64,000 bases of DNA from Novosphingobium sp. CF614. Its GTDB lineage: Bacteria; Pseudomonadota; Alphaproteobacteria; Sphingomonadales; Sphingomonadaceae. The notes beneath the pieces were generated by a model. The model was given only the letters and a program-made list of their open reading frames with translations, was not told the DNA's origin and did no database searches. Every line of letters begins with the position of its first letter. The stretch's first letter is position 1. Of this stretch, positions 13,776 through 58,366 are shown piece after piece. The stretch is taken from contig NZ_FOOR01000007.1 in assembly GCF_900113255.1 (NCBI RefSeq), positions 124,001-188,000 on the forward strand, written 5' to 3'. The position numbers and the translations under genes were made by a program.

Positions 13776-13778
13776 GAT

Positions 13779-42216: not shown

Positions 42217-44376
42217 ATGACGATTTGGAATTCCGCAGTTCATGCTTCCCTGTTGGCCGGAACGGCGCTGCTGGCATTTCCCGGCACGGCCCTGGCAGAC
42301 GAGGCCGCGGACGAGGCCGCCACGGGTGATGCGATCACGGTCGTCGGCCAGCGCCAGCAATATCGCGGCGACGTTCCGCTCAGAGAGATCCCGCAGTCGG
42401 TCCAGGAAATCAATGGCGAGATGCTCAAGGATCTCAACATCACCCGCCTCGACACCGCGCTCGATCTTGCCAGCGGCATCGCCCGTCAGAACAACTTCGG
42501 CGGCCTGTGGGATGCCTTCGCGGTGCGCGGCTTCGCGGGCGACGAGAATTTCCCGAGCGGCTTCCTGGTCAACGGCTTCAACGGCGGGCGCGGCTACGGC
42601 GGTCCGCGCGATGCCTCGAACATCGAGCGGATCGAGATCCTCAAGGGACCGAACGGCGCCGTGTTCGGGCGCGGCGAGCCCGGCGGCACGGTGAACATCA
42701 TCACCAGGAAGGCCACGCTCGACAACACTTTCGGCAGCTTCTCGGCCTCGGCCGGCAGCTTCGATACCTACCGCGTCGAAGGCGACTACAACCTCGCCCT
42801 GTCGGACAAGCTGGCGGTGCGCCTGAACGGCGCCGCGCAGGACGCCGGCAGCTTCCGCGACACGATCGAATCGAACAAGATCGTGGCTTCGCCCTCGGTG
42901 CTGTTCCAGCCCACGTCCTCGACCAGTCTCAGCTACGAGATGGAGTACGTCGACCAGGAAGTGCCGTTCGATCGCGGCGTCGTGGCCATCGACGGCGTAC
43001 TGGGCCGGATCCCGCGCTCGACCTTCCTCGGCGAACCGGGCGACGGGCCGATCAAGGTCAAGGTGCTTGGCCACCAGGTCCAGTTGCAGCAGGAACTTGC
43101 GAAGGACTGGGTCTTCCTCGCCGGCTTCGGCTATCGCGACACCAGCTTCGGGGGCTATTCGACCGAGGCGGAGCTTTCCGGCGGCCGCCAGACGCTGGAA
43201 GAGACCGGCAACTATCTTTCCCGCCAGCGCCGCTTCCGCGACTACGACACCACCAACATGGTGTTCCGTGGCGAGGTTTCCGGCAAGCTTTACACAGGGC
43301 CTTTCACGCACCACGTACTGGTCGGCGCCGATTGGGACCGGTTCGAGATCAACCTGCTGCAGCAGCGCTTCCGGCCCGGCAGCTATACCGCCGGTTCGGC
43401 GATCACCGCCAGCAACAACGCGATCGACATCTTCGATCCGGTCTATGGCCAGATGCCGACGCCGAACGTGACGATCACGAATTCAAAGGAAGTCCAGAAA
43501 TCCTGGGGCATCTACTTCCAGGACCAGATCGACATCACCGATCATTTCAAGATCCGCGTCGGCGGGCGCTATGACCACTTCCGCCAGAACGTCGACAACC
43601 ATCTGGCCACTGTCAACCCGATCACCATCAACGTTCGCAAGCGCTTCAGCCCCACGGCGGGCGCCCTCTATGAACTGACCGACACGCTCAGCATCTACGC
43701 CGGCTATGGCACGGGCTTCCGGCCGAACAGCGGCCTCGATGCTGACGGCAACACGTTCTCGCCGGAAACCAGCAAGTCCTATGAAGCAGGGCTGCGCTTC
43801 GTCTCGCCCGACAATGCCATCTCGGCGACGCTTGCCGCGTTCACGATGAAGAAGAACAACATCCTCACCATGAACCCGAACAACGCGAACTTCTCGATCG
43901 CGGCGGGATCGGCGCGGAGCAAGGGCATAGAGGCGGACGTGAACGCAAGGCTGCCGGGCGGTTTCAACGTCATCGGCACTTATGCCTATACCGATGCCTA
44001 TTGGACCACCGCCTCCCAGGACATGAGCTTCGGCCTCACCATTCTTCCGGGCGATTCGCTCATCAACATCCCCAAGCACGCGGCCAACCTGCTCGTGACC
44101 AAGGAATTCGACCTGGGCGATGCCGGCGTGGTGACGATCGGCAGCGGCGTCAACTACGTCGGCAAGCGGCTGGGCGAAACCGGGGTGGATTTCCACCTGC
44201 CGGACTACACCCTGGTCCGCGCTATGGCCAGCTACGCGCCAAGCGAGAGCGTCAAGCTCAGCCTCGATGCCACCAACTTGTTCAACGTGACGTACTACCC
44301 GGCTTCCTATCACCGTTACTGGGTGACGCCCGGTACGCCGCGCGCGGTCACTTTCCGGGTTGACTTCTCCTTCTGA
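42217..44376 (+). CDS. TonB-dependent siderophore-type outer-membrane receptor
   Basis: 719 residues. Signal peptide (MTIWNSAVHASLLAGTALLA...) then a TonB-box-like DAITVVGQ. The plug has LREIPQSVQEINGEM, FAVRGFAGDENFPSGFLVNG and RIEILKGPNGAVFGRGEPGG; the barrel ends with ATNLFNVTYYPASYH and the terminal aromatic VDFSF. Such receptors import ferric siderophores or other large ligands. It is the first gene of a 16-kb plus-strand cluster with a peptide-type transporter and catabolic enzymes, which suggests a ligand used as nutrient as well as, or instead of, an iron source. Confidence 0.92.
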   Translation: MTIWNSAVHASLLAGTALLAFPGTALADEAADEAATGDAITVVGQRQQYRGDVPLREIPQSVQEINGEMLKDLNITRLDTALDLASGIARQNNFGGLWDAFAVRGFAGDENFPSGFLVNGFNGGRGYGGPRDASNIERIEILKGPNGAVFGRGEPGGTVNIITRKATLDNTFGSFSASAGSFDTYRVEGDYNLALSDKLAVRLNGAAQDAGSFRDTIESNKIVASPSVLFQPTSSTSLSYEMEYVDQEVPFDRGVVAIDGVLGRIPRSTFLGEPGDGPIKVKVLGHQVQLQQELAKDWVFLAGFGYRDTSFGGYSTEAELSGGRQTLEETGNYLSRQRRFRDYDTTNMVFRGEVSGKLYTGPFTHHVLVGADWDRFEINLLQQRFRPGSYTAGSAITASNNAIDIFDPVYGQMPTPNVTITNSKEVQKSWGIYFQDQIDITDHFKIRVGGRYDHFRQNVDNHLATVNPITINVRKRFSPTAGALYELTDTLSIYAGYGTGFRPNSGLDADGNTFSPETSKSYEAGLRFVSPDNAISATLAAFTMKKNNILTMNPNNANFSIAAGSARSKGIEADVNARLPGGFNVIGTYAYTDAYWTTASQDMSFGLTILPGDSLINIPKHAANLLVTKEFDLGDAGVVTIGSGVNYVGKRLGETGVDFHLPDYTLVRAMASYAPSESVKLSLDATNLFNVTYYPASYHRYWVTPGTPRAVTFRVDFSF

Positions 44377-44456
44377 GAACGGCCTCCCAGCGCATGTCCG
44401 CCGCTCCCCGTCCAGCGGGGAGCGGCGGCGGCAAACCATCTTTCGGGAGCGGAACG

Positions 44457-45386
44457 ATGACCGCGATCCTCCATTGCGGCGATGAAGCGCGCGGCGCGCT
44501 GTGGCGTGAAATCTTCGCCCGGGAACTGCCGGAAGTGGAATTCCGCTGCTGGCCCGACCTGGAGGAGGCCGGGGATATCCGCTTCCTCGTCGCCTGGACG
44601 CTCACGCCCGAACTGATCGCGAGCCTGCCCAGGCTGGAGATCCTGTTCAGCATCGGCGCGGGCGTCGACCAGCTCGACCTCGGCATCGTTCCCCCGCATG
44701 TGCGGGTGGTGCGGATGATCGAGCCGGGCATCACCACCACCATGGCGCAGTACGTGGTCATGGCGGTGCTCGCGCTGCACCGCGACCTGCCGTTCTACCT
44801 GGCCGAGCAACGCGCCGGCCGCTGGACTCCGCGCGACGTGCTGCTGTGCTCCGAACGAAGCGTCGGCTTCCTGGGGCTTGGCGAGCTGGCGCGCGCCTCG
44901 TTGACCGCGCTGGCACCGCTGGGCTTTCGCCTGCTCGGCTGGAGCCGCGGCGGCGGCGAGATCGACGGAGTGGAATGCCATGCCGGCGCCGGCGGCCTCG
45001 ATCCGTTCCTGGCCCAGTGCGACATCCTTGTCTGCCTGCTGCCGCTGACCGACGAAACGCGCGGCATCCTGTGCCGCGACTTGTTCGACCGCCTTCCGCG
45101 CGGGGCCGCCATCGTCAACGCCGCGCGCGGCGGCCACCTGGTCCAGGAAGACCTCCGCGCGGCGCTGGACGAAGGCCAGCTCTCGGCCGCCTTCCTCGAC
45201 GTGGCCGACCCGGAGCCGCTGCCGGAGGGCCATCCATTCCATTCGCATCCCGCGATTTTCCTGACCCCGCACATCGCTGGCGTGACCCGCCGGGAAACCG
45301 CCGTGCATTCGCTGATCGCCAATCTCCGGCATGTCCTGGCCGGCCGGCAACCCGAAGGAGAAATCGATCGCCGGCGCGGCTACTGA
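44457..45386 (+). CDS. D-2-hydroxyacid dehydrogenase (glyoxylate/hydroxypyruvate reductase type)
   Basis: 309 residues from the ATG at 44457, preceded by GGGAGCGG. Nucleotide-binding VGFLGLGELARASL, then VNAARGGHL (substrate arginine), DVADPEPLPEGHPFHSH and LTPHIAGVTRRETA (catalytic histidine) follow the family order. Closest in layout to GhrA-type reductases. It starts 81 bases after the receptor stop. It probably reduces a 2-oxoacid produced in the cluster's pathway. Confidence 0.88.
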   Translation: MTAILHCGDEARGALWREIFARELPEVEFRCWPDLEEAGDIRFLVAWTLTPELIASLPRLEILFSIGAGVDQLDLGIVPPHVRVVRMIEPGITTTMAQYVVMAVLALHRDLPFYLAEQRAGRWTPRDVLLCSERSVGFLGLGELARASLTALAPLGFRLLGWSRGGGEIDGVECHAGAGGLDPFLAQCDILVCLLPLTDETRGILCRDLFDRLPRGAAIVNAARGGHLVQEDLRAALDEGQLSAAFLDVADPEPLPEGHPFHSHPAIFLTPHIAGVTRRETAVHSLIANLRHVLAGRQPEGEIDRRRGY

Positions 45387-45538: not shown

Positions 45539-46231
45539 ATGACCAGCGCCAGTCCCGTCTTCGTTCCCCCGTTCCGGCCCGCGTACATCAGCTTCGACTG
45601 CTACGGCACGCTGATCCGCTTCCGCATGTCGGAAATGGCCCGGGAATTCTTCGCCGACCGTATCGCGCCCGAAGCCATGGACCGTATGTGCCAGGTCTTC
45701 TCGACCTACCGCTTCGACGAGACCATGGGCCCATGGCAGCCCTATCGCGAGCTGATCCGCAATGCCGTACGCCGCACCGCGCGGAAGTTCGGCGTCGAGT
45801 ACCGCGAGGCGGACGCCGACGCGATCTACGAAGCGGTGCCGACCTGGGGCCCCCACGCGGACGTGCCGGGGGGCCTTGTCCGGATCGCCGACAAGATCCC
45901 GCTCGTCATCCTCTCCAATGCGATGAACGAGCAGATCCCGCACAATGTCGCGCTGCTGGGGGCGCCGTTCCACCGCGTCTATACCGCCGAGAGCGCGCAG
46001 GCCTACAAGCCGCGCATGCAGGCGTTCGAATACATGTTCGACCAGCTCGGCTGCGGGCCGGAAGTGATGATGCACGTCTCCTCCAGCTTCCGCTACGACC
46101 AGAACACCGCCACCGATCTCGGCTTCGGCTGCCGCGTCTTCGTCGGTCGCGGCCACGAGCCGTCGAACGCCAGCTATCGCGACGTCGAGATTCCGCACAT
46201 CGGCTGCCTGCCGGCCGTGGTCGGCCTCTGA
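45539..46231 (+). CDS. HAD-superfamily hydrolase, 2-haloacid dehalogenase type II-like
   Basis: 230 residues. ISFDCYGTLIRF carries the nucleophilic aspartate, VILSNAMNEQI the second motif, AYKPRMQAF the lysine, and HVSSSFRYDQNTATDLGF the acidic motif. Similarity to haloacid dehalogenases is clear, but many members are phosphatases or dehalogenases of unknown substrate. Stop and the next gene's GTG are adjacent, so it is part of the transporter operon. Confidence 0.83.
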   Translation: MTSASPVFVPPFRPAYISFDCYGTLIRFRMSEMAREFFADRIAPEAMDRMCQVFSTYRFDETMGPWQPYRELIRNAVRRTARKFGVEYREADADAIYEAVPTWGPHADVPGGLVRIADKIPLVILSNAMNEQIPHNVALLGAPFHRVYTAESAQAYKPRMQAFEYMFDQLGCGPEVMMHVSSSFRYDQNTATDLGFGCRVFVGRGHEPSNASYRDVEIPHIGCLPAVVGL

Positions 46232-47779
46232 GTGCCGATCGGGCGCGACCTTTCCCGGCGCGGGCTGATCGGCACCGGCCTGGCGGGGGTGGGCCTGCTT
46301 GCCCTGGGTGGATGCGGCGGCGGCGAGAAACCCGCCCGTCCGCAGCGCGGCGGCAGCATCCGCGTCGCCACGCAGGCCGCCTCCACGGCGGATACCCTGG
46401 ACCCGGCCAAGGGCGCGATGGCCACCGACTACACGCGCCATTTCATGCTCTACAACGGGCTGACCTGCATCGAGGACGAGAGCCTGGTTCCGCGCCCCTC
46501 GCTCGCCCGTGCGTTCGAGAGCGCCGATCGCATCACCTGGCACTTCGACCTCCAGCGCGGGGTGCGCTTCCATGACGGGGCCGAGCTGACCGCACGCGAT
46601 GTCGTGTTCTCGCTCCTGCGGCACAAGGATCCGGCGGTCGGCTCGAAGATGGCGGCCATCGCCCGGCAGTTCGCCGAAGTGCGCGCCGATGGCCGCTATG
46701 GCGTGATCCTGCGGCTGACCGGCGCCAACGCGGACCTGCCGACGATCCTGGCCCAGTCCCATTTCCTGATCGTGCGCGCCGGCCAGCCCGCGCCCGACGG
46801 CACCGGCACCGGCGCCTTCACGCTCGCGGAGTTCCAACCCGGCGTGCGTACCGTGGCCCTGCGCAACCCGGACTACTGGATTCCCGGCCGTCCCCGCCTC
46901 GAACGCGTCGAGCTGATCGCGATCCCCGACGAGGTCGGCCGGGTCAATGCGCTGCTTTCGGGCGATGTCCAGCTCTGCAATGCGATCAACCCGCGATCGA
47001 CCCGCCGCGTCGAGGCCGATCCGGGCTATGCGGTGATGGCCACGCCTTCCTCGCTCTTCACCGATCTCATCATGCGCCAGGACCAATTGCCCAGCGGCAA
47101 TCCCGATTTCGTCCAGGCGATCAAGCTGATGATCGACCGGCCGCTGGTGAAGCGCGCCCTGTTCCGCAACTATGCGACGATCGCCAACGACCAGCCGATC
47201 GCGCCGTTCCAGCCCTATTTCAACCCGGACGTGCCGCAGACCGTGCTCGATCTCGACAAGGCCCGCTGGCACGTGCGGCGCGCCGGGCTGACCGGCGTGC
47301 GCATGCCGATCTTCGCCGCCACCGCCGCGGTGGGCGCGGTCGACCTGGCCTCGATCCTCCAGGAATACGGTTCGAAGGTCGGCCTCGATTTCGCGGTCAA
47401 CCGCGTGCCCGCCGATGGATACTGGTCGACGCACTGGATGCGCCACCCCCTGACTTTCGGAAACTGCAACCCGCGCCCGACCGCCGATCTCATCTTCAGC
47501 CTGTTCTTCCAGTCGAGCGCGGAGTGGAACGAAAGCGGCTGGCGCAACGAGCGCTTCGACCGCCTGCTGGTGGAAGCACGCGGCGAAGCGGACGAGGCGC
47601 GGCGCGGCGAACTCTACGGCGAGATGCAGCGCATCGTCCACGACAAGTGCGGCGTCGCCATTCCCGTCTTCATCAGCCTCGTGGACGGCCACGATCGCCG
47701 CCTGAAGGGCCTGCGCCCGATCCCGCTGGGAGCCTTCATGGGCTATCGCTTCGCCGAATACGCATGGTGGGACGGCTGA
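46232..47779 (+). CDS. ABC transporter substrate-binding lipoprotein, family 5
   Basis: 515 residues, GTG start immediately after the previous stop. The N-terminus has twin arginines (DLSRRGLIG) and a lipobox LGGC, so it may be Tat-exported and lipidated. Family 5 (peptide, nickel, opine) features: RGGSIRVATQAAS, LDPAKGAM, ITWHFDLQRGVRFHDGAEL and GNPDFVQAIKLMIDRPLV. It binds the substrate in the periplasm for the permeases that follow. Its stop overlaps the first permease start. Confidence 0.93.
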   Translation: MPIGRDLSRRGLIGTGLAGVGLLALGGCGGGEKPARPQRGGSIRVATQAASTADTLDPAKGAMATDYTRHFMLYNGLTCIEDESLVPRPSLARAFESADRITWHFDLQRGVRFHDGAELTARDVVFSLLRHKDPAVGSKMAAIARQFAEVRADGRYGVILRLTGANADLPTILAQSHFLIVRAGQPAPDGTGTGAFTLAEFQPGVRTVALRNPDYWIPGRPRLERVELIAIPDEVGRVNALLSGDVQLCNAINPRSTRRVEADPGYAVMATPSSLFTDLIMRQDQLPSGNPDFVQAIKLMIDRPLVKRALFRNYATIANDQPIAPFQPYFNPDVPQTVLDLDKARWHVRRAGLTGVRMPIFAATAAVGAVDLASILQEYGSKVGLDFAVNRVPADGYWSTHWMRHPLTFGNCNPRPTADLIFSLFFQSSAEWNESGWRNERFDRLLVEARGEADEARRGELYGEMQRIVHDKCGVAIPVFISLVDGHDRRLKGLRPIPLGAFMGYRFAEYAWWDG

Positions 47780-48759
47780 TGGCCGGCGCCGCGTCGCATC
47801 GCTCGACCTTGGGCAATATCGCGCCGCTGATCGCCAGGCGGGCGCTGTCCTCGCTGCTGACGCTGTTCCTCGTTTCAGTGGTGATCTTCACCGTCAGCGG
47901 CCTGCTGCCGGGAGACGCCGCGCAGGAAGCCCTCGGCCAAAGCGCGACGCGGGAACAAGTCATCGCCCTGCGGCACGAGATGGGCCTCGATCGCCCGGCT
48001 CCCGTGCGCTACATGGACTGGCTCGGCAGCATCGCGCGCGGCGATCCGGGCATGTCCTATGTCGCCAACATGCCGGTCAGCCGGATCATTTCGGACCGCC
48101 TGCCCAACACGCTGACGCTGGCCGGGATCACCGCCGTGGTCTCGGTGATACTGGCCCTGGCGATCGGCGTCGGCAGCGCCGTCAACCGGGGCGGCAAGCT
48201 CGACAGCATGCTCAACGTCGTCACGCTGTCGCTGGTGGCCATGCCCGAATTCCTGATCGCGACGCTTGGCGTCATGATCTTCTCCGTCAAGCTGCTGTGG
48301 CTGCCCTCGATCGCGCTGGTCACGCCCGATGCGAGCTGGAGCGAAACGCTGCGCTCCTATGCCCTGCCAGTGTTCTCGCTGACGTGCGTGGTCGTCGCCC
48401 AGATGGCGCGCATGACCCGCGCCGCCGTCGCCGACCAGCTCGACCGGCCTTACGTCGAGATGGCGCGGCTCAAGGGCGTGCCCTTCTCGCGCATCGTGCT
48501 GTTCCACGTCATGCCCAATGCGGTGGGGCCGGTGGTCAACGCCATGGCGCTTTCGCTGTCCTACCTCATGGGCGGGGCGATCATCGTCGAGACGATCTTC
48601 AATTTTCCAGGCCTCGCCAGCCTGATGGTCAATGCCGTGACCAGCCGCGACATGCCCCTGCTGCAATCCTGCGCGATGATCTTCTGCGCCACCTACCTTG
48701 CCCTGATGCTGGTGGCGGACGTGATCGCCATTCTCGCCAATCCGAGGCTGCGGGCATGA
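47779..48759 (+). CDS. ABC transporter permease, DppB-type
   Basis: 326 residues, six predicted membrane helices. N-terminal LLPGDAAQEALGQSATREQV and RHEMGLDRPAPVRYMDWL are typical of DppB/OppB permeases. The EAA loop (VEMARLKGVPFSRIVLFHVM) contacts the ATPase, and MGGAIIVETIFNFPGLASL follows. ATG overlaps the preceding stop (TGATG). Confidence 0.92.
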   Translation: MAGAASHRSTLGNIAPLIARRALSSLLTLFLVSVVIFTVSGLLPGDAAQEALGQSATREQVIALRHEMGLDRPAPVRYMDWLGSIARGDPGMSYVANMPVSRIISDRLPNTLTLAGITAVVSVILALAIGVGSAVNRGGKLDSMLNVVTLSLVAMPEFLIATLGVMIFSVKLLWLPSIALVTPDASWSETLRSYALPVFSLTCVVVAQMARMTRAAVADQLDRPYVEMARLKGVPFSRIVLFHVMPNAVGPVVNAMALSLSYLMGGAIIVETIFNFPGLASLMVNAVTSRDMPLLQSCAMIFCATYLALMLVADVIAILANPRLRA

Positions 48760-49580
48760 GCGGGAAGATCGCCCAGACCTTGCGAACGCTGCCGATATCC
48801 GGCCGCATCGGCCTGGGGCTGGTGCTGTTCTGGCTCGCGGTCGCGCTTGCCGGACCGTCGCTGGCGCCGTATCCGGTAGGCGCCTTCGTGGATCGGGACG
48901 TGTTCAGCGGCGCCTCGGCGCGGTTCTGGCTGGGCAGTGACTATCTCGGCCGCGACGTGCTCAGCCGCCTGCTCTGGGGCTCGCGCTATACGGTGCTCCT
49001 GGCGCTGGGCGCGGCCCTGCTGGCGGTGGCGACGGGCACATCGCTGGCCCTCGTCGCGGCGGTCCGTGGCGGTTGGACCGACGAGATCATCTCGCGCACG
49101 ATGGATACGCTGATCTCGATTCCCTCGAAGATCTTCGCGCTGGTCCTTGTCGCCGCCTTCGGTTCCTCGCTGTCGCTGCTGCTGCTCATTGCCGCCTTCA
49201 CTTACGTTCCCGGCAATTTCCGCATCGCCCGCGCGCTGGCGATGAACCTCGTCGCGCTAGACTTCGTGCAGGTGGCGCGCGCCCGCGGCGAAAGGGCCTT
49301 CCATATCGCCCTGCGCGAAGTGCTGCCCAACATGATCCACCCGCTGCTGGCCGACATGGGCCTGCGCTTCGTCTTCGTCGTCCTGCTGCTCTCGGGCCTC
49401 AGCTTTCTCGGGCTCGGCGTGCAACCCCCGCACGCGGACCTCGGCTCCCTGGTGCGCGAGAACATTTCCGGCATCACCGAGGGGGCACTCGCCATCATCG
49501 CCCCGGCGCTCGCCATCGCCACGCTGACGGTGGGGGCGAACCTGCTCATCGACGCGCTCAAGCCCGGAGCAAAGGGATGA
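48756..49580 (+). CDS. ABC transporter permease, DppC-type
   Basis: 274 residues. FWLGSDYLGRDVLSRLLWGS near residue 50, LDFVQVARARGERAFHIALR as the EAA loop, and LLLSGLSFLGLGVQPPHADL match DppC/OppC permeases. ATGA overlap with the permease before and the ATPase after shows tight coupling. Confidence 0.92.
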   Translation: MSGKIAQTLRTLPISGRIGLGLVLFWLAVALAGPSLAPYPVGAFVDRDVFSGASARFWLGSDYLGRDVLSRLLWGSRYTVLLALGAALLAVATGTSLALVAAVRGGWTDEIISRTMDTLISIPSKIFALVLVAAFGSSLSLLLLIAAFTYVPGNFRIARALAMNLVALDFVQVARARGERAFHIALREVLPNMIHPLLADMGLRFVFVVLLLSGLSFLGLGVQPPHADLGSLVRENISGITEGALAIIAPALAIATLTVGANLLIDALKPGAKG

Positions 49581-51412
49581 GCGAAGGTGGCGAAGGCGCG
49601 AACGGCGCGGCGATCGAAGTCCGCAACCTGGTCATCGACGTCGCCGGCCCGAACGGCGCCCGCAAGGCCATAGTCGAGGATATCTCCTTCGCGATCCCCC
49701 CGGGCGAGGTCCTGGCCCTGATCGGCGAATCCGGCTCCGGCAAGACGACCATCGCGCTATCGATGATGGGCTATTCGCGCTTCGGCGCGCGCATCTCGGC
49801 CGACTGCATCCGCGTTGGCGATTTGCGCATCGATCGGTTCGGCGAAGACGCGCTGCGCACCGTGCGCGGACGCCGCATCGCCTATATCGCGCAGAGCGCG
49901 GCGGCGGCCTTCAATCCCTCGCGCCCGATCATGGCGCAAGTGATCGAGCCGCTGCTGGTCCACCGCCTGGCCGACCGGCGGACGGCCCAGGCCAGGGCCA
50001 TCGAACTGTTCCGCGCCCTCGCCCTGCCCTCGCCGGAGATCATCGGCCAGCGATACCCGCACCAGGTGTCGGGCGGCCAGCTCCAGCGGCTCATGGCGGC
50101 CATGGCGCTCATCACCGATCCCGAGCTGGTCATTCTCGACGAGCCGACCACCGCGCTCGACGTGACGACCCAGGTCGAAGTTCTCCGTGCCTTCAAGGCG
50201 GCGATCGCGCGGAGCGGGGCCACCGCGATCTACGTCAGCCACGACCTCGCCGTCGTCGCCCAAGTCGCCGACCGCATCGCCGTGCTGAAGAATGGCCGGA
50301 TGTGCGAGGAGGGACCGGCCGCGCAAGTGCTCGAATCCCCCGCCAGCGACTATACGCGCTCGCTGCTCGCCGCCGTCCGCCCGGCGGCCCGCCCGGCCTC
50401 GCAAACGGGCCGGGAAAAAGTCCTGGCCGTCTCCGGCCTTCACGCCGGATATGGCCGAGTGATCGACGGGATTCCCGCGATCCCGGTCCTGCGCGACGTG
50501 AGCTTCGTCCTGCGGCGCGGGGCGACGCTGGGGATCATCGGGGAATCGGGTTCGGGCAAATCGACGCTCGCGCGCGTCATCGCCGGCCTGCTGCCCGCCG
50601 CCGCAGGGGAAATCCTGCTGGAAGGGGAGCGCCTGCCCCCGGACATGGCGCGCCGCAGCCGGGAGCAGTTGCGGCGGGTCCAACTGGTGTTCCAGAACGC
50701 CGACACCGCCCTGAACCCCGCCCATACCGTCGGGCAGATACTTGCGCGCCCGCTGGCCTTCTTCCACCGCATGAAGGGTGCGGCCGCCGATACCCGGGTG
50801 GCCGAACTGCTGGACCTGATCCAGCTTCCGCGCGAGATCGGGGCGCGCCGCAGCACCGAGCTGTCGGGCGGCCAGAAGCAGCGGATCAACCTCGCCCGCG
50901 CCCTTGCCGCCGAACCCGACGTCCTGCTCTGCGACGAAGTGACGTCCGCGCTCGATACCGTGGTGGGGGCCGCCATCCTCGACCTCATCGACGGGCTGCG
51001 GCGCGAACTCGGGATCGCCACGGTCTTTATCAGCCACGACATATCGACCGTGAAGGCGTTCTGCGACGATATGCTCGTGCTCTATTCCGGCAATGCCGTG
51101 GAACAGGCGAGCCGGGCCGAATTCGCGGGCGATACCCGCCATCCCTATACGCGCCTGCTGATCGATTCGGTGCCGGAGATGGACCGGGGCTGGCTCGCCC
51201 ATCGCGCCGCCGTGGAGCGTGCCGCCCTGCCTGGCGCCGCGCTCGAGAACCCCCGGGGCGAAGCGCTGTGCCGCTTCCTGCCGCGCTGCCCGGTTGCCGT
51301 GGCCGGGACTTGCGATACCGTGCCCGTTCCCCTGCGCCAAGCCGGCAGCCACGCCGTCCTGTGCCATCGCACGCTGGCCGATCTCGCTTCGGCGGGGATC
51401 ATGGGAAACTGA
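49577..51412 (+). CDS. Fused double-ATPase (DppD-DppF type) ABC transporter protein
   Basis: 611 residues with two complete ATP-binding domains in one chain. First: Walker A GESGSGKTT, VSGGQLQRL signature, LVILDEPTTALD Walker B. Second, after a linker near residue 275: GESGSGKST, VFQNADTALNPAHTVG, LSGGQKQRINLARAL, and Walker B variant LLCDEVTSALD with E retained. A peptide-transporter C-terminus (HPYTRLLIDSVPEMDR) and cysteines (CRFLPRCPVAVAGTC) follow. DppD and DppF are usually two proteins. Confidence 0.93.
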   Translation: MSEGGEGANGAAIEVRNLVIDVAGPNGARKAIVEDISFAIPPGEVLALIGESGSGKTTIALSMMGYSRFGARISADCIRVGDLRIDRFGEDALRTVRGRRIAYIAQSAAAAFNPSRPIMAQVIEPLLVHRLADRRTAQARAIELFRALALPSPEIIGQRYPHQVSGGQLQRLMAAMALITDPELVILDEPTTALDVTTQVEVLRAFKAAIARSGATAIYVSHDLAVVAQVADRIAVLKNGRMCEEGPAAQVLESPASDYTRSLLAAVRPAARPASQTGREKVLAVSGLHAGYGRVIDGIPAIPVLRDVSFVLRRGATLGIIGESGSGKSTLARVIAGLLPAAAGEILLEGERLPPDMARRSREQLRRVQLVFQNADTALNPAHTVGQILARPLAFFHRMKGAAADTRVAELLDLIQLPREIGARRSTELSGGQKQRINLARALAAEPDVLLCDEVTSALDTVVGAAILDLIDGLRRELGIATVFISHDISTVKAFCDDMLVLYSGNAVEQASRAEFAGDTRHPYTRLLIDSVPEMDRGWLAHRAAVERAALPGAALENPRGEALCRFLPRCPVAVAGTCDTVPVPLRQAGSHAVLCHRTLADLASAGIMGN

Positions 51413-51742: not shown

Positions 51743-52597
51743 ATGGTGGTTGCGGTAAAAGCCCCCAACGTGTTGCGCGACATGACGATGGAGGACCTGC
51801 CCCGCGCGGTCGAACTTTCCGCCGAACAATCCTGGCCGCATCGGACCGAGGACTGGCAACTGTTCTTCGAGCTGGGCGAAGGCATCGTGGCGGAGTGCGA
51901 CGGCAAGGTCGTCGGTTCGATCATGGCCTGGCGCTATGGCGACGATTTCGCCTCGATCGGCATGGTCATCGTCACCCCGGAAAAGCAGCGCGAGGGAATC
52001 GGCCGCCAGTTGATGGAGGCCATGCTCGCCCGCCTTGGAAACCGCAACGTCATGCTCAACGCGACGGCGGACGGCCTGCCGCTTTACGCCCGGCTGGGTT
52101 TCGAGCCTTACGTGACCGTGCGCCAGCATCACGGCCCGGCACCGACGATGCCGCTGGCGGCGCTGCAACCCGGCGAACGCGTCCGCCCGATGGGCGCCAC
52201 CGACGACATGCTGCCCGCGCTCTACAGCCGGGCGGTCGGCATGGACCGGGACGAATTCTTCACGCGGCTGGCGCAGGACAGCCAGTCGATCGTGCTCTCG
52301 CGCGATCACGAGCCGGTCGGCTTCGCGCTGCTGCGCCGTTTCGGGCGTGGACGCGTGATCGCGCCGATCGTCGCGCCCGATCTGGGCGGGGCGCAAGCGC
52401 TCGTCACCCATTGGCTGGGCGCCACGGCAGGCAAGTTCTGCCGCATCGACGCGGTCGACGGCACCGGCCTGTCCGAATGGCTGGAGGACATCGGTCTGCC
52501 TTGCGTGGACAGCGTTACGACAATGGTGCGCGGAACTCCGCCGGCCGCGGCGGCCGGCAGCCGGATCTTCGCCATCGCGGCCCAGGCCTTCGGCTGA
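51743..52597 (+). CDS. GNAT acetyltransferase-like protein
   Basis: 284 residues. The N-terminal half is a GNAT domain with the acetyl-CoA loop KQREGIGRQLMEAML and ADGLPLYARLGFEPYVTV; the C-terminal half (about 150-284) looks like a second, degenerate domain with SQSIVLSRDHEPVGFALLRR. Shared stop/start with the aldehyde dehydrogenase (TGATG) places it in the catabolic operon. The acceptor is unknown. Confidence 0.85.
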   Translation: MVVAVKAPNVLRDMTMEDLPRAVELSAEQSWPHRTEDWQLFFELGEGIVAECDGKVVGSIMAWRYGDDFASIGMVIVTPEKQREGIGRQLMEAMLARLGNRNVMLNATADGLPLYARLGFEPYVTVRQHHGPAPTMPLAALQPGERVRPMGATDDMLPALYSRAVGMDRDEFFTRLAQDSQSIVLSRDHEPVGFALLRRFGRGRVIAPIVAPDLGGAQALVTHWLGATAGKFCRIDAVDGTGLSEWLEDIGLPCVDSVTTMVRGTPPAAAAGSRIFAIAAQAFG

Positions 52598-54054
52598 TGC
52601 CGCAGCTTCGCGATCCCTCGCTGCTGCGCGAAGCGGCACTGGTCGCGGGTGCCTGGCTGGCGGCCGATCCGGGCACCGGCATTGCCGTCGACAATCCCGC
52701 CGACGGCAGCCTCGTCGGCCATGTCCCCGCGTGCGGACGGGCGGAAACCCAGGCCGCGATCGACGCCGCCATGGCCGCCTGGCCGGAGTGGCGCGCCCGC
52801 ACCGCCGGCGAGCGCTGCGCCCTCGTCGAACGCTGGCACGCGCTGGTCCTGGAGAACCTGCCCGATCTTGCCCGCATCATGACCGCCGAGCAGGGCAAGC
52901 CGCTGCCCGAGGCTGAGGGCGAGATTCGCTACTCCGCCAGCTTCATCAAGTGGTTCGCCGAGGAAGGCCGCCGCGTCGGCGCCCGCAACGTCACCTCTCC
53001 CGAACGCGATCGGCGCATCATTGTCCTGGCCGAGCCGGTCGGACCCAGCGCCATCATCACCCCGTGGAACTTTCCGGCGGCGATGATTACGCGCAAGTGC
53101 GCGCCGGCCCTCGCCGCCGGCTGCCCGGTCATCATCAAGCCTTCCGAATTCACGCCCTTCACCGCGCTCGCGCTGGCCGACCTGGCCTTGCGCGCCGGCA
53201 TCCCCCCGGGCCTGGTCCATGTCGTGACCGGCACGCCGCAGGAAATCGGCGCGACTTTCGCCGCCAGCCCGGATGTCCGCAAGCTGTCGTTCACCGGCTC
53301 GACCCGCGTCGGCGCGCTGCTGATGCGCCAGTGCGCCGACACCATCAAGCGCGTAAGCCTGGAACTGGGCGGCAATGCCCCGCTGATCGTGTTCGAGGAC
53401 GCCGACCTCGACCTGGCGGTCAAGGCCACCATGGTCAGCAAGTTCCGCAATTCGGGCCAGACCTGCGTCTGCGCCAACCGCATCCTGGTGCATGCCGCGA
53501 TCCACGACGAATTCGCGGCAAGGCTCGGCACGGCCGTCGCGGCACTGCATGCGGCGCCGGGCATGGAGGCCGGATCGACCATCGGCCCGCTCATCAACGC
53601 CGCGGCGGTGGCCAAGGTCTCGGCACACGTCGCCGACGCGCTGGACAAGGGCGGGCGCATCCTGGCGGCCGGCGGCGGGCGCAAGGACGGCAACTTCGCG
53701 CGCGCCGTCGTGATCGCCGATGCCCGCACGGACATGCGCCTGGCGAGCGAGGAAACCTTCGGCCCGGTCGCTCCGCTGTTCCGCTTCGAGGACGAGGCGC
53801 AGGCGCTTGCCATGGCCAACGATACGCCTTACGGGCTCGCCAGCTACTTCTACACCCGCGATCTTTCGCGCGCTTTCCGTGTGGCCGAGGCGCTGGAAGC
53901 GGGCATGGTCGCCCTCAATACAGGCTCCATCGCCATGGAAATGGCACCCTTCGGCGGAATCAAGCAATCGGGCCTCGGCCGCGAGGGCGGCACGGCGGGC
54001 ATCGAGGAATACCTGGAGACGAAGGCCTTCCACATCGGCGGCCTCGAACGATAA
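52597..54054 (+). CDS. NAD(P)-dependent aldehyde dehydrogenase, succinate-semialdehyde type
   Basis: 485 residues. ITPWNFPAAMITRKCAPALA and IKPSEFTPFTAL bind cofactor; LSFTGSTRVGALL, catalytic glutamate in LELGGNAPLIVFED and catalytic cysteine in NSGQTCVCANRI are present; the C-terminal FGGIKQSGLGREGG is typical of GabD-like enzymes. It fits oxidation of a semialdehyde produced by the cluster's aminotransferase. Confidence 0.92.
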   Translation: MPQLRDPSLLREAALVAGAWLAADPGTGIAVDNPADGSLVGHVPACGRAETQAAIDAAMAAWPEWRARTAGERCALVERWHALVLENLPDLARIMTAEQGKPLPEAEGEIRYSASFIKWFAEEGRRVGARNVTSPERDRRIIVLAEPVGPSAIITPWNFPAAMITRKCAPALAAGCPVIIKPSEFTPFTALALADLALRAGIPPGLVHVVTGTPQEIGATFAASPDVRKLSFTGSTRVGALLMRQCADTIKRVSLELGGNAPLIVFEDADLDLAVKATMVSKFRNSGQTCVCANRILVHAAIHDEFAARLGTAVAALHAAPGMEAGSTIGPLINAAAVAKVSAHVADALDKGGRILAAGGGRKDGNFARAVVIADARTDMRLASEETFGPVAPLFRFEDEAQALAMANDTPYGLASYFYTRDLSRAFRVAEALEAGMVALNTGSIAMEMAPFGGIKQSGLGREGGTAGIEEYLETKAFHIGGLER

Positions 54055-54072: not shown

Positions 54073-55149
54073 ATGAGTACGAAACGCCGCTATTCGATCG
54101 CGGTCATTCCTGGCGACGGCATCGGCAAGGAAGTCATGCCCGAAGGCACCCGCGCCCTCGAAGCGGCGGCATCGGCGCACGGCTTCGAACTCGACCTGCA
54201 ATGGCACGATTTCGCCAGCTGCGATTACTATGCGCAGCACGGCCAGATGATGCCCGACGACTGGAAGGACCGCATCGGCAAGGTCGACGCGATCTTCTTC
54301 GGCGCCGTCGGCTGGCCCGAAACGGTGCCCGACCATATCTCGCTATGGCAATCGCTCCTCCAGTTCCGGCGCGAGTTCGACCAATACGTCAACTTGCGCC
54401 CGGTCCGGCTGATGCCCGGCGTCCCCTGCCCGCTCGCCGGCCGCGAGCCGGGCGACATCGACTTCTGGGTGGTGCGCGAGAATACCGAGGGTGAATACAG
54501 TTCGGTCGGCGGGCACATGTTCCCCGGCACCGAGCGCGAGATCGTGATCCAGGAAACGGTAATGACCCGCCACGGCGTCGACCGCGTCCTGCGCTATGCC
54601 TTCGACCTTGCCCGCAAGCGCGAGCGCAAGCACCTGACCAGCGCCACCAAGTCCAACGGCATCGCCATCACCATGCCGTTCTGGGACGGGCGCGTGGAGG
54701 CTATCGCCGAGGAATATCCCGAAGTCAGCCACGACAAGTACCACATCGATATCCTGACCGCGCAGTTCGTGCTCAATCCGCAGCGCTTCGACGTGGTCGT
54801 CGCTTCCAATCTGTTCGGCGACATCCTATCCGACCTGGGACCCGCCTGCACCGGCACGATCGGCGTCGCCCCTTCGGCGAACATCAACCCGACCGGCAAG
54901 CATCCCTCGCTGTTCGAACCGGTCCATGGATCGGCGCCCGACATCGCGGGCAAGGGCATCGCCAATCCGATCGGCCAGGTGTGGTCCGCCGCGATGATGC
55001 TGGAGCATCTGGGCGAGGCCGAAGCCGCCGCCTCGATCATGCGCGCGGTCGAAACCACGCTGGCATCGCCGTCGGGCCGGACGGGCGACCTCAAGGGCAC
55101 TGCCGACACGGTATCCTGCGGCAAGGCGATAGCCGCTGAGATCGGCTGA
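54073..55149 (+). CDS. Tartrate/D-malate-type decarboxylating dehydrogenase
   Basis: 358 residues of the isocitrate/isopropylmalate superfamily, IPGDGIGKEVMPEGTRAL near the start. Substrate and metal region: LRPVRLMPGVPCPL, DFWVVRENTEGEYSSVG, then DILTAQFVLNPQRFDVVV and LFGDILSDLGPACTG; cofactor site EPVHGSAPDIAGKGIANPIG. The WVVRENTEGEYS motif is that of tartrate dehydrogenase/D-malate enzymes. It lies 18 bases after the aldehyde dehydrogenase. Confidence 0.9.
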   Translation: MSTKRRYSIAVIPGDGIGKEVMPEGTRALEAAASAHGFELDLQWHDFASCDYYAQHGQMMPDDWKDRIGKVDAIFFGAVGWPETVPDHISLWQSLLQFRREFDQYVNLRPVRLMPGVPCPLAGREPGDIDFWVVRENTEGEYSSVGGHMFPGTEREIVIQETVMTRHGVDRVLRYAFDLARKRERKHLTSATKSNGIAITMPFWDGRVEAIAEEYPEVSHDKYHIDILTAQFVLNPQRFDVVVASNLFGDILSDLGPACTGTIGVAPSANINPTGKHPSLFEPVHGSAPDIAGKGIANPIGQVWSAAMMLEHLGEAEAAASIMRAVETTLASPSGRTGDLKGTADTVSCGKAIAAEIG

Positions 55150-55290: not shown

Positions 55291-56700
55291 ATGGAAAATG
55301 TTCTCTCCGGCGCACCGGCGTTCCCGTCCAACCAGTCGCTCATCGATATCGACCGCCGACACCTGATCCACCCGGTCACCTCGTTCCGCGGCCATGAGGC
55401 GCACGGAGCGCGGGTGCTGGCATCGGGCGACGGAATGTGGCTGACCGATATCGACGGCAAGCGCGTGCTCGATGCCTTCGCCGGCCTGTGGTGCGTCAAC
55501 GTCGGCTATGGGCAGGAATCGATCGTCGCGGTGGCGGCGGAACAGATGCGCCGGCTGCCCTATGCCACGGGCTATTTCCACTTCGGCAGCGAGCCGGCGA
55601 TCCTGCTGGCCGACAAGCTTGCCGCGCTGGCGCCGGCCGGCCTCGACCATGTCTACTTCACGCTCGGCGGCTCGGACGCGGTGGACAGCGCGATCCGCTA
55701 TATCACCCATTACTTCAACGCCATCGGCAAGCCCGAGAAGAAGCAGTTCATCGCGCTCGAATGGGGCTACCACGGTTCCAGTTCGAACGGCGCGGGGCTG
55801 ACCGCGCTGGCGAACTTCCATCGCGGCTTCGACCTGCCGCGCCCCTGGCAGCATCACATCGCCTCGCCCTATCCCTATCGCCATCCCGACGGCCAGGACG
55901 ATTGCGCCGTCGTCGCCTCGACCGTCGCCGCGCTGGAGGCCAAGGTCGCGGAACTGGGCGCGGACAACGTCGCGGCCTTCTGCTGCGAACCGATTCAGGG
56001 TTCGGGCGGCGTGATCGTTCCGCCGCGCGGTTGGCTCAAGGCGATCCGCGCGGCCTGCGACCGGCTCGGCATTCTCCTGCTGGTGGACGAAGTCATCACC
56101 GGCTTCGGTCGCACCGGCCCGATGTTCGCCTGCGACGACGAAGGCGTTTCGCCCGATTTCATGACGCTCGCCAAGGGCCTGACCTCCGGCTACGCGCCGA
56201 TGGGCGCGCTGCTGATGGCCGATCATGTCTACCAAACGATCGCGGATTCCGCGCCGGCCGCGCTGGCGGTGGGGCATGGTTTCACTTATTCCGGGCATCC
56301 GGTCAGCGCCGCGGTCGGGCTTGAAGTGATCCGTCTCTACGAGAACGGCCTGCTGGACAACGGCCTGCGGGCCGGCGCGCGCTTCGCCCACCACCTCGCG
56401 CGAATCCGCGAGCATCCGCTGGTCGGCGATACGCGCGAACGCGGCCTGCTCGGCGCGATCGAGCTGGTCAGCGACAAGCGGACCAAGGCCGGCTTCGGGG
56501 CCGACCTGGACATCGCCGGCAGGCTGTCCGCCCTGACCTGGGAGAACGGCGTCATCGTGCGGTGTTTTGCCAATGCGGTCATAGGCTTCGCACCGGCACT
56601 ATGCTGTTCCGAAAGCGAGATGGACCTGATATTCGAACGCGTGGAACGGTCGCTGGATCAGTTGCTGGATATGCCGGACATCCGACGGGCGCTGGGCTGA
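55291..56700 (+). CDS. Class III (omega) aminotransferase
   Basis: 469 residues. DIDGKRVLDAFAGLWCVNVG at the N-terminus, the PLP pocket with FCCEPIQGSGGVIVPPRGWL, VDEVITGFGRTG and the Schiff-base lysine in TLAKGLTSGYAPMGAL. Such enzymes transaminate omega-amino compounds (GABA, beta-alanine, putrescine, taurine) with pyruvate. It is followed 13 bases later by the Lrp-type regulator. Paired with the aldehyde dehydrogenase it forms an amine-to-acid module. Confidence 0.92.
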   Translation: MENVLSGAPAFPSNQSLIDIDRRHLIHPVTSFRGHEAHGARVLASGDGMWLTDIDGKRVLDAFAGLWCVNVGYGQESIVAVAAEQMRRLPYATGYFHFGSEPAILLADKLAALAPAGLDHVYFTLGGSDAVDSAIRYITHYFNAIGKPEKKQFIALEWGYHGSSSNGAGLTALANFHRGFDLPRPWQHHIASPYPYRHPDGQDDCAVVASTVAALEAKVAELGADNVAAFCCEPIQGSGGVIVPPRGWLKAIRAACDRLGILLLVDEVITGFGRTGPMFACDDEGVSPDFMTLAKGLTSGYAPMGALLMADHVYQTIADSAPAALAVGHGFTYSGHPVSAAVGLEVIRLYENGLLDNGLRAGARFAHHLARIREHPLVGDTRERGLLGAIELVSDKRTKAGFGADLDIAGRLSALTWENGVIVRCFANAVIGFAPALCCSESEMDLIFERVERSLDQLLDMPDIRRALG

Positions 56701-56713
56701 GGGGGAAAACGTC

Positions 56714-57199
56714 GTGCTGGGCCCGAAACTTGACCGCATCGATCTGAAGATCCTTGCCATGTTGCAGCAATGCGGCCGCATCACCAATGTCGAGTTGTCG
56801 GACGCCGTGGGCCTCTCGCCCAGCCCCTGCCTCACCCGCGTCAAGCGCCTGGAAAGCGCCGGCTACATCACCGGCTACGGCGCGCACATCAATCTCAACA
56901 AACTGGGCGAATTCCTCACCGTCTTCACCGAGGTGACGCTCAGCGAACATCGCCGGGGCGACTTCTCGCGTTTCGAGATGCGGATCGCCAAGCTTGACGA
57001 AGTGGTGGAATGCCATCTCGTCAGCGGCGGCTACGACTACCTGCTCAAGTTCGTCGCCCGCGGCGTCACCCACTACCAGTCGATCATCGAACAGATGCTG
57101 GAAAGCGACTACGGGATCGAGAAGTACTTCAGTTACATCGTCATCAAGAGCCCCTTCATCAAGCATCACTTTCCGATCCAGAACCTGTTCGGCGAGTAG
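56714..57199 (+). CDS. Lrp/AsnC-family regulator
   Basis: 161 residues, GTG start. LDRIDLKILAMLQQCGRITN and VELSDAVGLSPSPCLTRVKR form the helix-turn-helix; the C-terminal RAM domain includes VVECHLVSGGYDYLLKFVAR. It is placed between the aminotransferase and the amidohydrolase on the same strand and is the likely ligand-responsive regulator of the cluster. Confidence 0.93.
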   Translation: MLGPKLDRIDLKILAMLQQCGRITNVELSDAVGLSPSPCLTRVKRLESAGYITGYGAHINLNKLGEFLTVFTEVTLSEHRRGDFSRFEMRIAKLDEVVECHLVSGGYDYLLKFVARGVTHYQSIIEQMLESDYGIEKYFSYIVIKSPFIKHHFPIQNLFGE

Positions 57200-57217
57200 G
57201 TGGGCGGGACGGCATCG

Positions 57218-58366
57218 ATGAACGACATTTCCGACCTGCTGCAACCGCTGATCGCCTTCCGCCGCGATATCCACGCCCACCCCGAACTGGGCTTCCACGA
57301 ACATCGCACCGCCGCGCGCATCGCCGGGCAGCTCCGCGCCATCGGTCTCGATGTCCACGAAGGCATCGGCGGGACCGGCATCGTCGCGGTGCTGCGCACC
57401 GGCACCGGCACGCGCACGCTGGGCCTGCGCGCCGACATGGACGCATTGCCGATCGAGGAACGGACCAACGCGGCCTGGACCAGCACGATACCCGGCTGCT
57501 TTCATGGCTGCGGCCACGACGGCCACCTGGCGATGCTGCTCGGCGCGGCGCAAGTGCTCGCGCGCGATCCGGGGTTCTCGGGCACGCTCAACTTCATCTT
57601 CCAGCCCGCCGAGGAAGGCCTGGGCGGCGCGCGCCACATGATCGAGGACGGCCTGTTCCGGCGCTTTCCCTGCGATCGCGTCTATGCCCTGCACAACTGG
57701 CCGGGCCTGCCGGCGGGGACGATCTCCACGCGCCCGGGCGCGATCATGGGCGCCGCCGACAAGTTCTCCATCATGCTCGAAGGCAAGGGCGGCCACGCCG
57801 CGCTGCCCCACGATACGCCCGACACGATCCTGGCCGCCGCCAGCCTTGTCCAGCAGCTCAATACCGTGATCGGCCGCGACATCCCGCCCAGCGCCAATGC
57901 CGTGCTTTCGGTGACGGAGATCGCCGGCGGCCATGCCCATAACGTGCTGCCCGCAAGCGTGCGCATCGGCGGCACCGTGCGCAGCTTCGACCCGCAAGTG
58001 CAGGACCGCATCGAGCAGCGCATGCGCCAGATCCTGAAAGGCATCGAGGCTTCCTTCGAAGTGCGTGGGTCGCTCGACTACGATCGCTATTATCCGGCAA
58101 CGATCAACGATGCCGACGCCGCCGCCGACGCGCTGGCAATTGCCGCCAGCGTCGGCCGCGCCGAACTCGCCCCCGAACCGGCCGCGACTTCGGAGGATTT
58201 CTCGTTCATGCTCCAGCAGCGGCCAGGCGCCTATCTCTGGCTCGGCCAGGGGCGAGGCGACGATCCGCCACCGCTGCACAATCCCCACTACGATTTCAAC
58301 GACGACGTGCTGGAAACCGGCATCCGCCTGCACGTGGCGCTAGCCCGGCACTGGCTGCGCGACTGA
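57218..58366 (+). CDS. M20-family amidohydrolase (hippurate/IAA-amino-acid hydrolase type)
   Basis: 382 residues from the ATG at 57218. RRDIHAHPELGFHEHRTA, RADMDALPIEE, CFHGCGHDGHLAML and FQPAEEGLGGARHMIEDGL carry the metal-binding histidines, cysteine and glutamates of the M20D group; GGHAALPHDTPD is the dimerisation-domain motif. Members cleave N-acyl amino acids or conjugates. Last gene of the cluster; a palindromic repeat follows its stop. Confidence 0.92.
   Translation: MNDISDLLQPLIAFRRDIHAHPELGFHEHRTAARIAGQLRAIGLDVHEGIGGTGIVAVLRTGTGTRTLGLRADMDALPIEERTNAAWTSTIPGCFHGCGHDGHLAMLLGAAQVLARDPGFSGTLNFIFQPAEEGLGGARHMIEDGLFRRFPCDRVYALHNWPGLPAGTISTRPGAIMGAADKFSIMLEGKGGHAALPHDTPDTILAAASLVQQLNTVIGRDIPPSANAVLSVTEIAGGHAHNVLPASVRIGGTVRSFDPQVQDRIEQRMRQILKGIEASFEVRGSLDYDRYYPATINDADAAADALAIAASVGRAELAPEPAATSEDFSFMLQQRPGAYLWLGQGRGDDPPPLHNPHYDFNDDVLETGIRLHVALARHWLRD

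Follow-up and report, generated by a model that had tools for sequence, protein, structure and literature searches.

A gene island of Novosphingobium sp. CF614 that may take up and degrade azetidine-ring amino acids of the nicotianamine or phytosiderophore type

Gene content of the island

The stretch of DNA analyzed here (the window) comprises 64,000 nucleotides of contig NZ_FOOR01000007.1 from Novosphingobium sp. CF614 and carries 13 head-to-tail genes, all on the + strand, at positions 42217-58366 (Table 1). They encode a TonB-dependent receptor, a family-5 ABC importer with its substrate-binding protein (SBP), a type II HAD hydrolase that we call HAD2, and several catabolic enzymes together with an Lrp/AsnC-family regulator. 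The original prediction, made from the letters alone, had seen in this interval a possible uptake-and-degradation island for an amide-linked amino compound. Here we propose, as a serious possibility that still falls short of probable, that the island serves for the import and degradation of azetidine-ring amino acids, with nicotianamine and/or mugineic-acid phytosiderophores as the most likely substrates. These compounds contain an azetidine-2-carboxylate ring with aminocarboxypropyl or hydroxycarboxypropyl chains.

Gene identities were assigned by Pfam and NCBIfam profile matches with curated cut-offs, which bear out the predicted genes and their common strand. A crude filter on the guanine-cytosine (GC) content of codon positions flagged 9 of the 13 genes; it missed the two permeases, the ATPase, and the SSADH-type gene, whose frames are open far upstream and whose calls rest on the family matches. 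In the translations, start and stop codons overlap between adjacent ABC transporter genes. The predicted end of the island at 58366 did not hold, as the contig continues beyond the window with further island genes, namely two DAO-type flavin adenine dinucleotide (FAD) oxidases and an aldehyde dehydrogenase. A copper-resistance block separates the M20 gene from the first of these oxidases; cop genes also come after the M20 gene in plasmid pLA3 of N. pentaromativorans and in Sphingobium RAC03.

Table 1. Features of the island, its continuation, and a variant found in relatives. Positions are those of the window unless another stretch is named.
Feature	Position	Strand	Basis or remark
TonB-dependent siderophore-type outer-membrane receptor, 719 amino acids	42217..44376	+	PF00593/PF07715, TIGR01783
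GhrA-like D-2-hydroxyacid dehydrogenase / glyoxylate-hydroxypyruvate reductase	44394..45386	+	PF02826; NF012013
HAD2, HAD type II hydrolase, candidate azetidine ring-opening hydrolase	45539..46231	+	TIGR01428
ABC family-5 SBP	46232..47779	+	PF00496
ABC permease 1, DppB/NikB type	47776..48759	+	PF00528/PF19300, NCBIfam, translation
ABC permease 2, DppC/NikC type	48756..49580	+	PF00528, NCBIfam, translation
Fused double ATPase, DppD-DppF type, oligo_HPY	49577..51412	+	Two ABC_tran stretches and PF08352, translation
Double-domain GNAT acetyltransferase (Acetyltransf_7 and Acetyltransf_18)	51743..52597	+	Pfam domains, start codon check
SSADH-type semialdehyde dehydrogenase, proposed (R)-malate-semialdehyde dehydrogenase	52597..54054	+	PF00171; TIGR01780
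Tartrate/D-malate dehydrogenase (decarboxylating), TTC family	54073..55149	+	TIGR02089; solved relative 3flk
Class-III omega-aminotransferase, PRK05965 type, proposed 4-amino-2-hydroxybutyrate aminotransferase	55291..56700	+	NF004625
Lrp/AsnC-family regulator	56714..57199	+	PF13412/PF01037
M20 aminoacylase-type amidohydrolase	57200..58366	+	PF01546/PF07687, TIGR01891
Copper-resistance block: CopB, multicopper oxidase, extracytoplasmic function (ECF)-type sigma factor, CopC, CopD	58568-63967
DAO-type FAD oxidase, aldehyde dehydrogenase, second DAO oxidase (opposite strand)	stretch L067 4081-8251		Starts about 80 bases past the window end
Variant: HAD2, phosphotransferase, and a different class-III aminotransferase	stretches L063 23463-27141, L069 12537-15660, L073 14992-18182

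HAD2 is nearest by sequence to azetidine-2-carboxylate hydrolases

HAD2 scores above the TIGR01428 (HAD type II) cut-off (160.8 vs 125.4 bits). When a profile of 24 HAD2 sequences was compared with solved proteins, 8hp5 (E 1e-28) and 3smv, 8ywo, and 9v14 (2e-26) led the matches, with epoxysuccinate hydrolases and haloacid dehalogenases at 7e-15 or weaker, and a single-sequence search ranked the same azetidine-2-carboxylate hydrolase (AC-hydrolase) group first. The PDB titles of 3smv, 8ywo, and 8yvw read L-azetidine-2-carboxylate hydrolase. Those of 8hp5-7 read (S)-2-haloacid dehalogenase, 8hp7 being a 'K152A mutant trapped with (2R)-4-amino-2-hydroxybutanoic acid'; we counted 8hp5-7 in the AC-hydrolase group on account of this trapped product and of one Burkholderia HAD that matches both sets closely. 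Because 8hp7 traps the (2R) compound, ring opening in this relative yields an R product, which is the stereochemistry leading to D-malate.

The AC-hydrolase group also takes Foldseek ranks 1-4 with the AlphaFold model of HAD2 (predicted local distance difference test, pLDDT, 85). HAD2 residues D20 and K157 are invariant in all 24 aligned sequences and align with D12 and K152, which were mutated in 8hp6/8hp7 (D12 also in 8yvw). A catalytic Asp and Lys are common to other type-II HADs as well and are thus not specific. Taken by its sequence, HAD2 is a candidate azetidine ring hydrolase. True haloacid dehalogenation was considered and rejected, as the neighboring genes handle no haloacids and sequence comparison puts the AC-hydrolase group first.

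A different role for the HAD would be to hydrolyze cis-epoxysuccinate and so supply the tartrate dehydrogenase with tartrate, the island then serving to degrade a dicarboxylic acid. The TTC protein is indeed annotated as tartrate dehydrogenase, and cis-epoxysuccinate hydrolases are the next-nearest solved proteins by profile and close in fold, VIA-align Z scores with the HAD2 model not separating them from the AC-hydrolase group. We nevertheless consider this highly improbable: the HAD2 profile gives them 58 bits vs 103 for the AC-hydrolase group, and the aminotransferase, SSADH-type enzyme, Lrp regulator, amine oxidases, and peptide-type importer would be left unexplained.

The downstream enzymes fit a 4-amino-2-hydroxybutyrate intermediate

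(2R)-4-amino-2-hydroxybutyrate is an analogue of gamma-aminobutyrate (GABA) and fits the chain of aminotransferase, SSADH-type, and TTC-family enzymes. The aminotransferase lies above the NF004625 cut-off (819.1 vs 729 bits), and the SSADH-type enzyme falls just under that of TIGR01780 (639.6, cut-off 646.35), a near miss that is consistent with a related semialdehyde as its substrate. The TTC protein exceeds the TIGR02089 tartrate dehydrogenase cut-off (566.4 vs 470.4 bits), and the tartrate dehydrogenase/decarboxylase 3flk is by far its nearest solved relative (E 4e-161). TTC-family enzymes, such as P. putida tartrate dehydrogenase and E. coli DmlA, act on D-malate, and inversion at the ring carbon would explain why a dehydrogenase of the D-malate type accompanies a 'haloacid dehalogenase'. 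The GhrA-like protein reaches 184.3 bits with NF012013, under the cut-off of 403.

A Burkholderia ambifaria plasmid encodes an orthologue of the island aminotransferase (65% identity) together with an SSADH, an Lrp regulator, a GABA permease, and two HADs. One HAD matches 8hp5 at 6e-116 and 3smv at 1e-93, and the other is 63% identical to the first in the alignment of the loci. This neighborhood of orthologue and AC-hydrolase homologues lends the azetidine route independent genomic support. In the corresponding Pseudomonas pathway, AC-hydrolase yields 2-hydroxy-4-aminobutyrate, and transamination comes next (excerpt of PMC8016842). We regard the azetidine/4-amino-2-hydroxybutyrate core of our proposal as fairly well supported.

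For the M20 protein, the nearest solved relatives are YxeP, an IAA-amino acid hydrolase, and an N-acyl-glutamine aminoacylase, which name no substrate for it. A different, ArgE-annotated gene replaces it in rhizobial islands. Peptide uptake was set aside, the sole peptidase-family member, M20, being aminoacylase-like. The M20 protein also matches the DoeB2 deacetylase model NF038260 at 332 bits, which speaks for another opine- or diamine-like substrate, for example N-acyl-2,4-diaminobutyrate or an ectoine-related compound; the aminotransferase would then be DoeD-like, the SSADH-type enzyme DoeC-like, and the regulator DoeX-like. The combination of AsnC/Lrp, class-III aminotransferase, and SSADH mirrors the ectoine pathway, and the islands of S. 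meliloti and Variovorax include ornithine-cyclodeaminase and threonine/serine-dehydratase genes, which resemble EutC/EutB. However, the DoeB2 cut-off of 550 is missed, and no M24 ectoine hydrolase is present among the 13 island genes (the rest of the genome was not searched for DoeA/EutD). Such a substrate would also give no role to the HAD, to the TTC dehydrogenase, or to the oxidases, and we judge it unlikely.

Conservation and co-occurrence of the island genes

N. pentaromativorans plasmid pLA3 carries a syntenic copy of the island (99% of the interval covered, 82% identity) with one extra gene, which encodes a PepSY_TM protein between the receptor and GhrA. Proteins of this type often accompany siderophore receptors. 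The pLA3 island is flanked by sigma-factor/FecR and TonB genes on one side and by copper genes on the other. Across the Proteobacteria, relatives of the island, rearranged or partial, are present in Sphingobium, Croceicoccus, Nitrospirillum, Rhizobium, Sinorhizobium, Bosea, Microvirga, Bradyrhizobium, Chelatococcus, Paracoccus, and Variovorax, where a fur gene lies inside the island, and on a Klebsiella variicola plasmid. Sphingobium RAC03 has the run receptor, GhrA, HAD2, FAD oxidase, ABC importer, 2Fe-2S, Pyr_redox/BFD, DAO; the last three, which recur in sphingomonad relatives, presumably represent an opine-type oxidase architecture.

An aminotransferase-based search returned 54 loci, 46 of them at no less than 50% identity, and those 38 of the 46 whose DNA spans 19 kb or more were counted. 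Partners were scored at 35% identity or more within a flank of 10 kb, which misses parts further off; in Sphingobium RAC03, for example, about 23 kb separate HAD2 and the aminotransferase. A GNAT gene was present in all 38 loci, Lrp in 34, SSADH in 33, TTC and an M20/ArgE-type gene in 27 each, the SBP in 22, HAD2 in 21, the first oxidase type in 20, and an AC-hydrolase-like HAD in 12. For contrast, eight distant aminotransferase loci, not all of which reach 19 kb, were scored as well and contained none of the partner genes.

In a sample of 196 genomes of the order (HAD2 at E up to 1e-50, aminotransferase up to 1e-130), we found HAD2 in five, the aminotransferase in six, and both in five genomes, i.e., HAD2 in 5/6 aminotransferase-positive vs 0/190 negative genomes (Fisher p 2.6e-9). 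The sample of the phylum comprised 398 genomes (HAD2 at E up to 1e-45, aminotransferase up to 1e-130 and scored on at most four first-look candidates per genome); here, HAD2 was present in 28, the aminotransferase in 20, and both in 19, HAD2 thus occurring in 19/20 aminotransferase-positive vs 9/378 negative genomes (p 1.0e-24). Both p-values ignore kinship among the genomes. The two genes lie on one contig within 13 kb in 18 of the 19 genomes, the window genome included. Eight of the nine genomes with HAD2 only were inspected, and six have the first oxidase type within 1 kb and an SBP near, while two do not. The synteny with pLA3 and the co-occurrence of HAD and aminotransferase show that the association goes beyond chance, and the anatomy of the locus together with these two results upholds the predicted combination of uptake and degradation in one island.

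We also compared 41 loci with HAD2 at a minimum of 45%, which had been selected for similarity to either the aminotransferase or HAD2 and comprise near relatives as well. The first oxidase type lies within 300 bp of HAD2 in 27 of them and the SBP within 12 kb in 33. The widest unit is therefore HAD2 with a DAO oxidase and the ABC importer, the aminotransferase and TTC genes forming one of several back ends. These counts bear on another explanation, namely that free azetidine-2-carboxylate, or a form with a simple N-substituent, is what the island degrades, as in Pseudomonas A2C, and that the TonB receptor is adjacent by chance. The downstream enzymes already account for such a substrate, and the B. 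ambifaria version has a GABA permease, with nothing in the 31 kb compared that matches the family-5 importer genes. For a molecule the size of proline, however, a TonB receptor, an oligopeptide-type importer, and two or three amine oxidases would all be superfluous, and the frequent company of oxidase and SBP in the 41 loci likewise makes this explanation unlikely. Because of the siderophore-type receptor, the oligopeptide-size importer, and the amine oxidases, nicotianamine or a mugineic-acid phytosiderophore, both larger chelators with an azetidine ring, would fit the island better than the free ring. The PepSY_TM gene of pLA3, the opine-oxidase-like genes of sphingomonad relatives, and the fur gene of Variovorax also hint at a chelator.

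The island on Klebsiella variicola pX39-1 (stretch L068 11689-28467) is flanked by insertion sequence (IS) elements and has the order SSADH, aldehyde dehydrogenase (ALDH), HAD2, FAD, ABC, FAD, GNAT, GhrA, amidohydrolase, gabT, Lrp. The neighbors of the relative island on a Rhizobium leguminosarum plasmid (stretch L072 3173-8806) are genes of the homoserine kinase, aspartate ammonia-lyase, dapA, aldehyde dehydrogenase, and homoserine dehydrogenase types. Islands of the Hyphomicrobiales type have a second HAD after the aminotransferase, and for that of Chelatococcus the AC-hydrolase group provides the only solved matches at 1e-10.

Import genes and amine oxidases

The receptor exceeds the TIGR01783 siderophore-receptor cut-off (290.1 vs 223.5 bits) and precedes GhrA and HAD in the window, in pLA3 (with the PepSY gene between), and in Sphingobium RAC03. 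This conserved order argues against the view that a siderophore or iron-uptake locus and an unrelated operon of amino-acid catabolism just happen to be neighbors, as does the RAC03 order, which runs directly on into the FAD oxidase and ABC genes. Chance adjacency would agree with the lack of the receptor in most relative loci and with the pLA3 island lying between sigma-factor/FecR and TonB genes on one flank and copper genes on the other; on balance, we find it very unlikely.

The AlphaFold model of the SBP (pLDDT 74) is similar to proteins that bind opines, dipeptides, and metal chelates. Its profile has no match to a solved protein at E 1e-60, and with the CntA-type model NF047575 it reaches 30.8 bits, far from the cut-off of 800. 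The fused ATPase lies above the NikD and NikE cut-offs and slightly below those of CntD and CntF. No match to nicotianamine synthase was found in the window genome, which disfavors self-production by that family only, and the compound would therefore come from outside.

The first oxidase beyond the window is 57% identical to a Paracoccus island oxidase and the second is 51% identical to another, orthologues of both belonging to the islands of relatives. In pLA3, the first oxidase type lies 15 kb from HAD2.

Chromosomal setting

The window copy of the island is chromosomal, as ribosomal-protein and EF-G genes lie in its neighborhood (L2, L3, and EF-G at about 12000-18630). The copies of US6-1, PP1Y, and RAC03 are, in contrast, found in plasmid records. 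Elsewhere in the window, a pocket of low GC content (0.548) at 20001-22000 contains a gene for a LuxR-type regulator (21118-21942, - strand) and a + strand open reading frame with no Pfam match at 1e-5, which by eye looks like a small MarR-like regulator.

A proposed route for import and breakdown

The metal chelate would enter through the TonB receptor in the outer membrane and the family-5 ABC importer in the inner membrane. DAO-type FAD oxidases or, in relatives, opine-oxidase-like complexes may then cleave the N-CH2 bonds of the side chains, and the aspartate- or malate-semialdehyde released would be oxidized by aldehyde dehydrogenases; two such cuts would give two semialdehydes, matching the two oxidases and two aldehyde dehydrogenases. 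Before or after this, the HAD hydrolase would open the azetidine ring by an Asp-based substitution with inversion, giving (2R)-4-amino-2-hydroxybutyrate, by analogy with the structure of a relative. Judging by their families, the class-III aminotransferase would convert this product to (R)-malate semialdehyde (2-hydroxy-4-oxobutyrate), the SSADH-type enzyme would oxidize it to D-malate, and the TTC-family dehydrogenase would decarboxylate D-malate to pyruvate and CO2. Toxic intermediates of azetidine or diamino type might be acetylated and deacetylated by GNAT and M20, and the Lrp regulator might sense an amino-acid intermediate.

Such a route agrees in part with the original prediction. Of the substrates suggested there, a nicotianamine- or phytosiderophore-like compound fits best, with the HAD nearest to the azetidine group and the other enzymes handling its product. 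The amide link, however, no longer leads, because C-N amine cleavage and ring opening explain more genes; M20 is the only amidase-like gene, far below the DoeB2 cut-off and replaced in rhizobia. Extending the proposal to the relatives is a more tentative step. The islands of Rhizobium, Sinorhizobium, Variovorax, the Azospirillum group, Paracoccus, Klebsiella, and sphingomonads may plausibly all be genes for phytosiderophore/nicotianamine catabolism, the sphingomonads importing the intact metal complex through the TonB receptor, amine oxidases cutting the side chains, the ring being opened with inversion, and carbon flowing via D-malate to pyruvate.

Comparison with known systems

The island shares with the AC-hydrolase pathway of Pseudomonas A2C and AzhA of Aspergillus nidulans a type-II HAD followed by transamination of 4-amino-2-hydroxybutyrate, and the orthologue of its aminotransferase adjoins close AC-hydrolase homologues. 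It differs in its divergent HAD2 and in adding outer-membrane and ABC import, amine oxidases, SSADH, TTC, and an Lrp regulator of its own. The Pseudomonas pathway involves periplasmic hydrolysis and a GABA-type transporter, and in the fungus an acetyltransferase aids azetidine detoxification (both in the excerpt of PMC8016842). No GABA-permease-type transporter is present among the 13 island genes, whereas B. ambifaria has one.

Ectoine catabolism (Doe/Eut) acts on a C4 diamino acid with a class-III aminotransferase, an SSADH-type dehydrogenase, a deacylase, and AsnC/Lrp. The island has counterparts of all four, but also extra HAD, TTC, and DAO genes, and it lacks both a hit above the DoeB2 cut-off and, among its 13 genes, an ectoine hydrolase. 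Opine systems, in which octopine/nopaline oxidases are combined with ABC importers, find a parallel in the 2Fe-2S, Pyr_redox/BFD, and DAO trio of the sphingomonad relatives and in the SBP fold, to which binders of agropinate, mannopinate, and agrocinopine, together with other proteins, are near. Instead of the trio, the window genome has DAO oxidases of a single chain with the island, and we know of no opine pathway that includes HAD and TTC. With the Cnt/staphylopine importers, which take nicotianamine-like ligands, and with nickel-chelate importers, the island shares a family-5 ABC importer whose ATPase passes the NikD/NikE cut-offs; unlike the Cnt system, it has an SBP far below the CntA cut-off, and no nicotianamine-synthase-family gene was found in the genome.

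Discussion

Azetidine-2-carboxylate catabolism and chelator uptake are both known, and the island appears to combine the two, its substrate being assigned by inference. Several observations weigh against this assignment, chiefly that HAD2 shares little identity with characterized enzymes, that no receptor was seen outside sphingomonads among the relatives examined, and that there is a variant with a phosphotransferase and another aminotransferase. HAD2 is just 22-28% identical to the AC-hydrolase group, and VIA-align Z scores amount to a tie between that group (24.5) and the L-2-haloacid dehalogenases (22.9-24.0). The window genome contains no close AC-hydrolase, the sole match being HAD2 itself at 31%; as there is no second AC-hydrolase-like HAD, HAD2 would need to perform the ring opening, perhaps on an N-substituted ring. 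Besides pLA3 and RAC03, the receptor is present in only 1 of the 38 relative loci, so that metal import is no general part of the island family. Genes that never occur together would have refuted the original prediction; the island genes do co-occur, except that among the relatives examined the receptor turned up solely in sphingomonads. A phosphotransferase and another class-III aminotransferase, which resemble a hydroxylysine kinase/phospholyase pair, accompany HAD2 in 6 of the 41 loci, and our scheme does not explain them.

The remaining reservations concern single genes. Just 3 of the 18 sphingomonad/Nitrospirillum-type loci have HAD2 inside the 10-kb flank of the aminotransferase, 11 of the 38 loci lack TTC, and the solved relatives of the aminotransferase are mixed omega-transaminases, none of which names the substrate. 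The window oxidases are about 18 kb from HAD2 rather than adjacent to it; among solved proteins, the first has only a weak glycine-oxidase match, and the nearest relatives of the second are L-amino acid deaminases, so that neither comparison names a substrate. The SBP model is near in fold to several ligand classes, and no Fur-box consensus was found in the window with up to three mismatches allowed.

Soil microorganisms reportedly degrade mugineic acids with ease (excerpt of PMC7946895). P. fluorescens SBW25 degrades mugineic and deoxymugineic acid and lowers their level around Brachypodium roots, its candidate degradation genes having been named by expression only; according to the same source, only one earlier study described isolates that degrade them, and it gave no genetic information (excerpt of PMC7786132). 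Interest in phytosiderophore loss is also evident from the excerpts of PMC12364333 and PMC4143957, which give no genes. Beyond the SBW25 candidates, the titles and abstract openings of the open-licence literature, among the matches listed, name no bacterial gene cluster for nicotianamine or mugineic-acid catabolism.

If our proposal is true, the island would lead to bacterial genes responsible for how quickly plant iron chelators disappear from soil, and a defined gene set makes bacterial phytosiderophore degradation testable. It would allow asking why a proline analogue of deoxymugineic acid that was designed for stability persists longer in soil, and which rhizosphere bacteria take the iron chelators of grasses, whether stealing the iron or eating the ligand.

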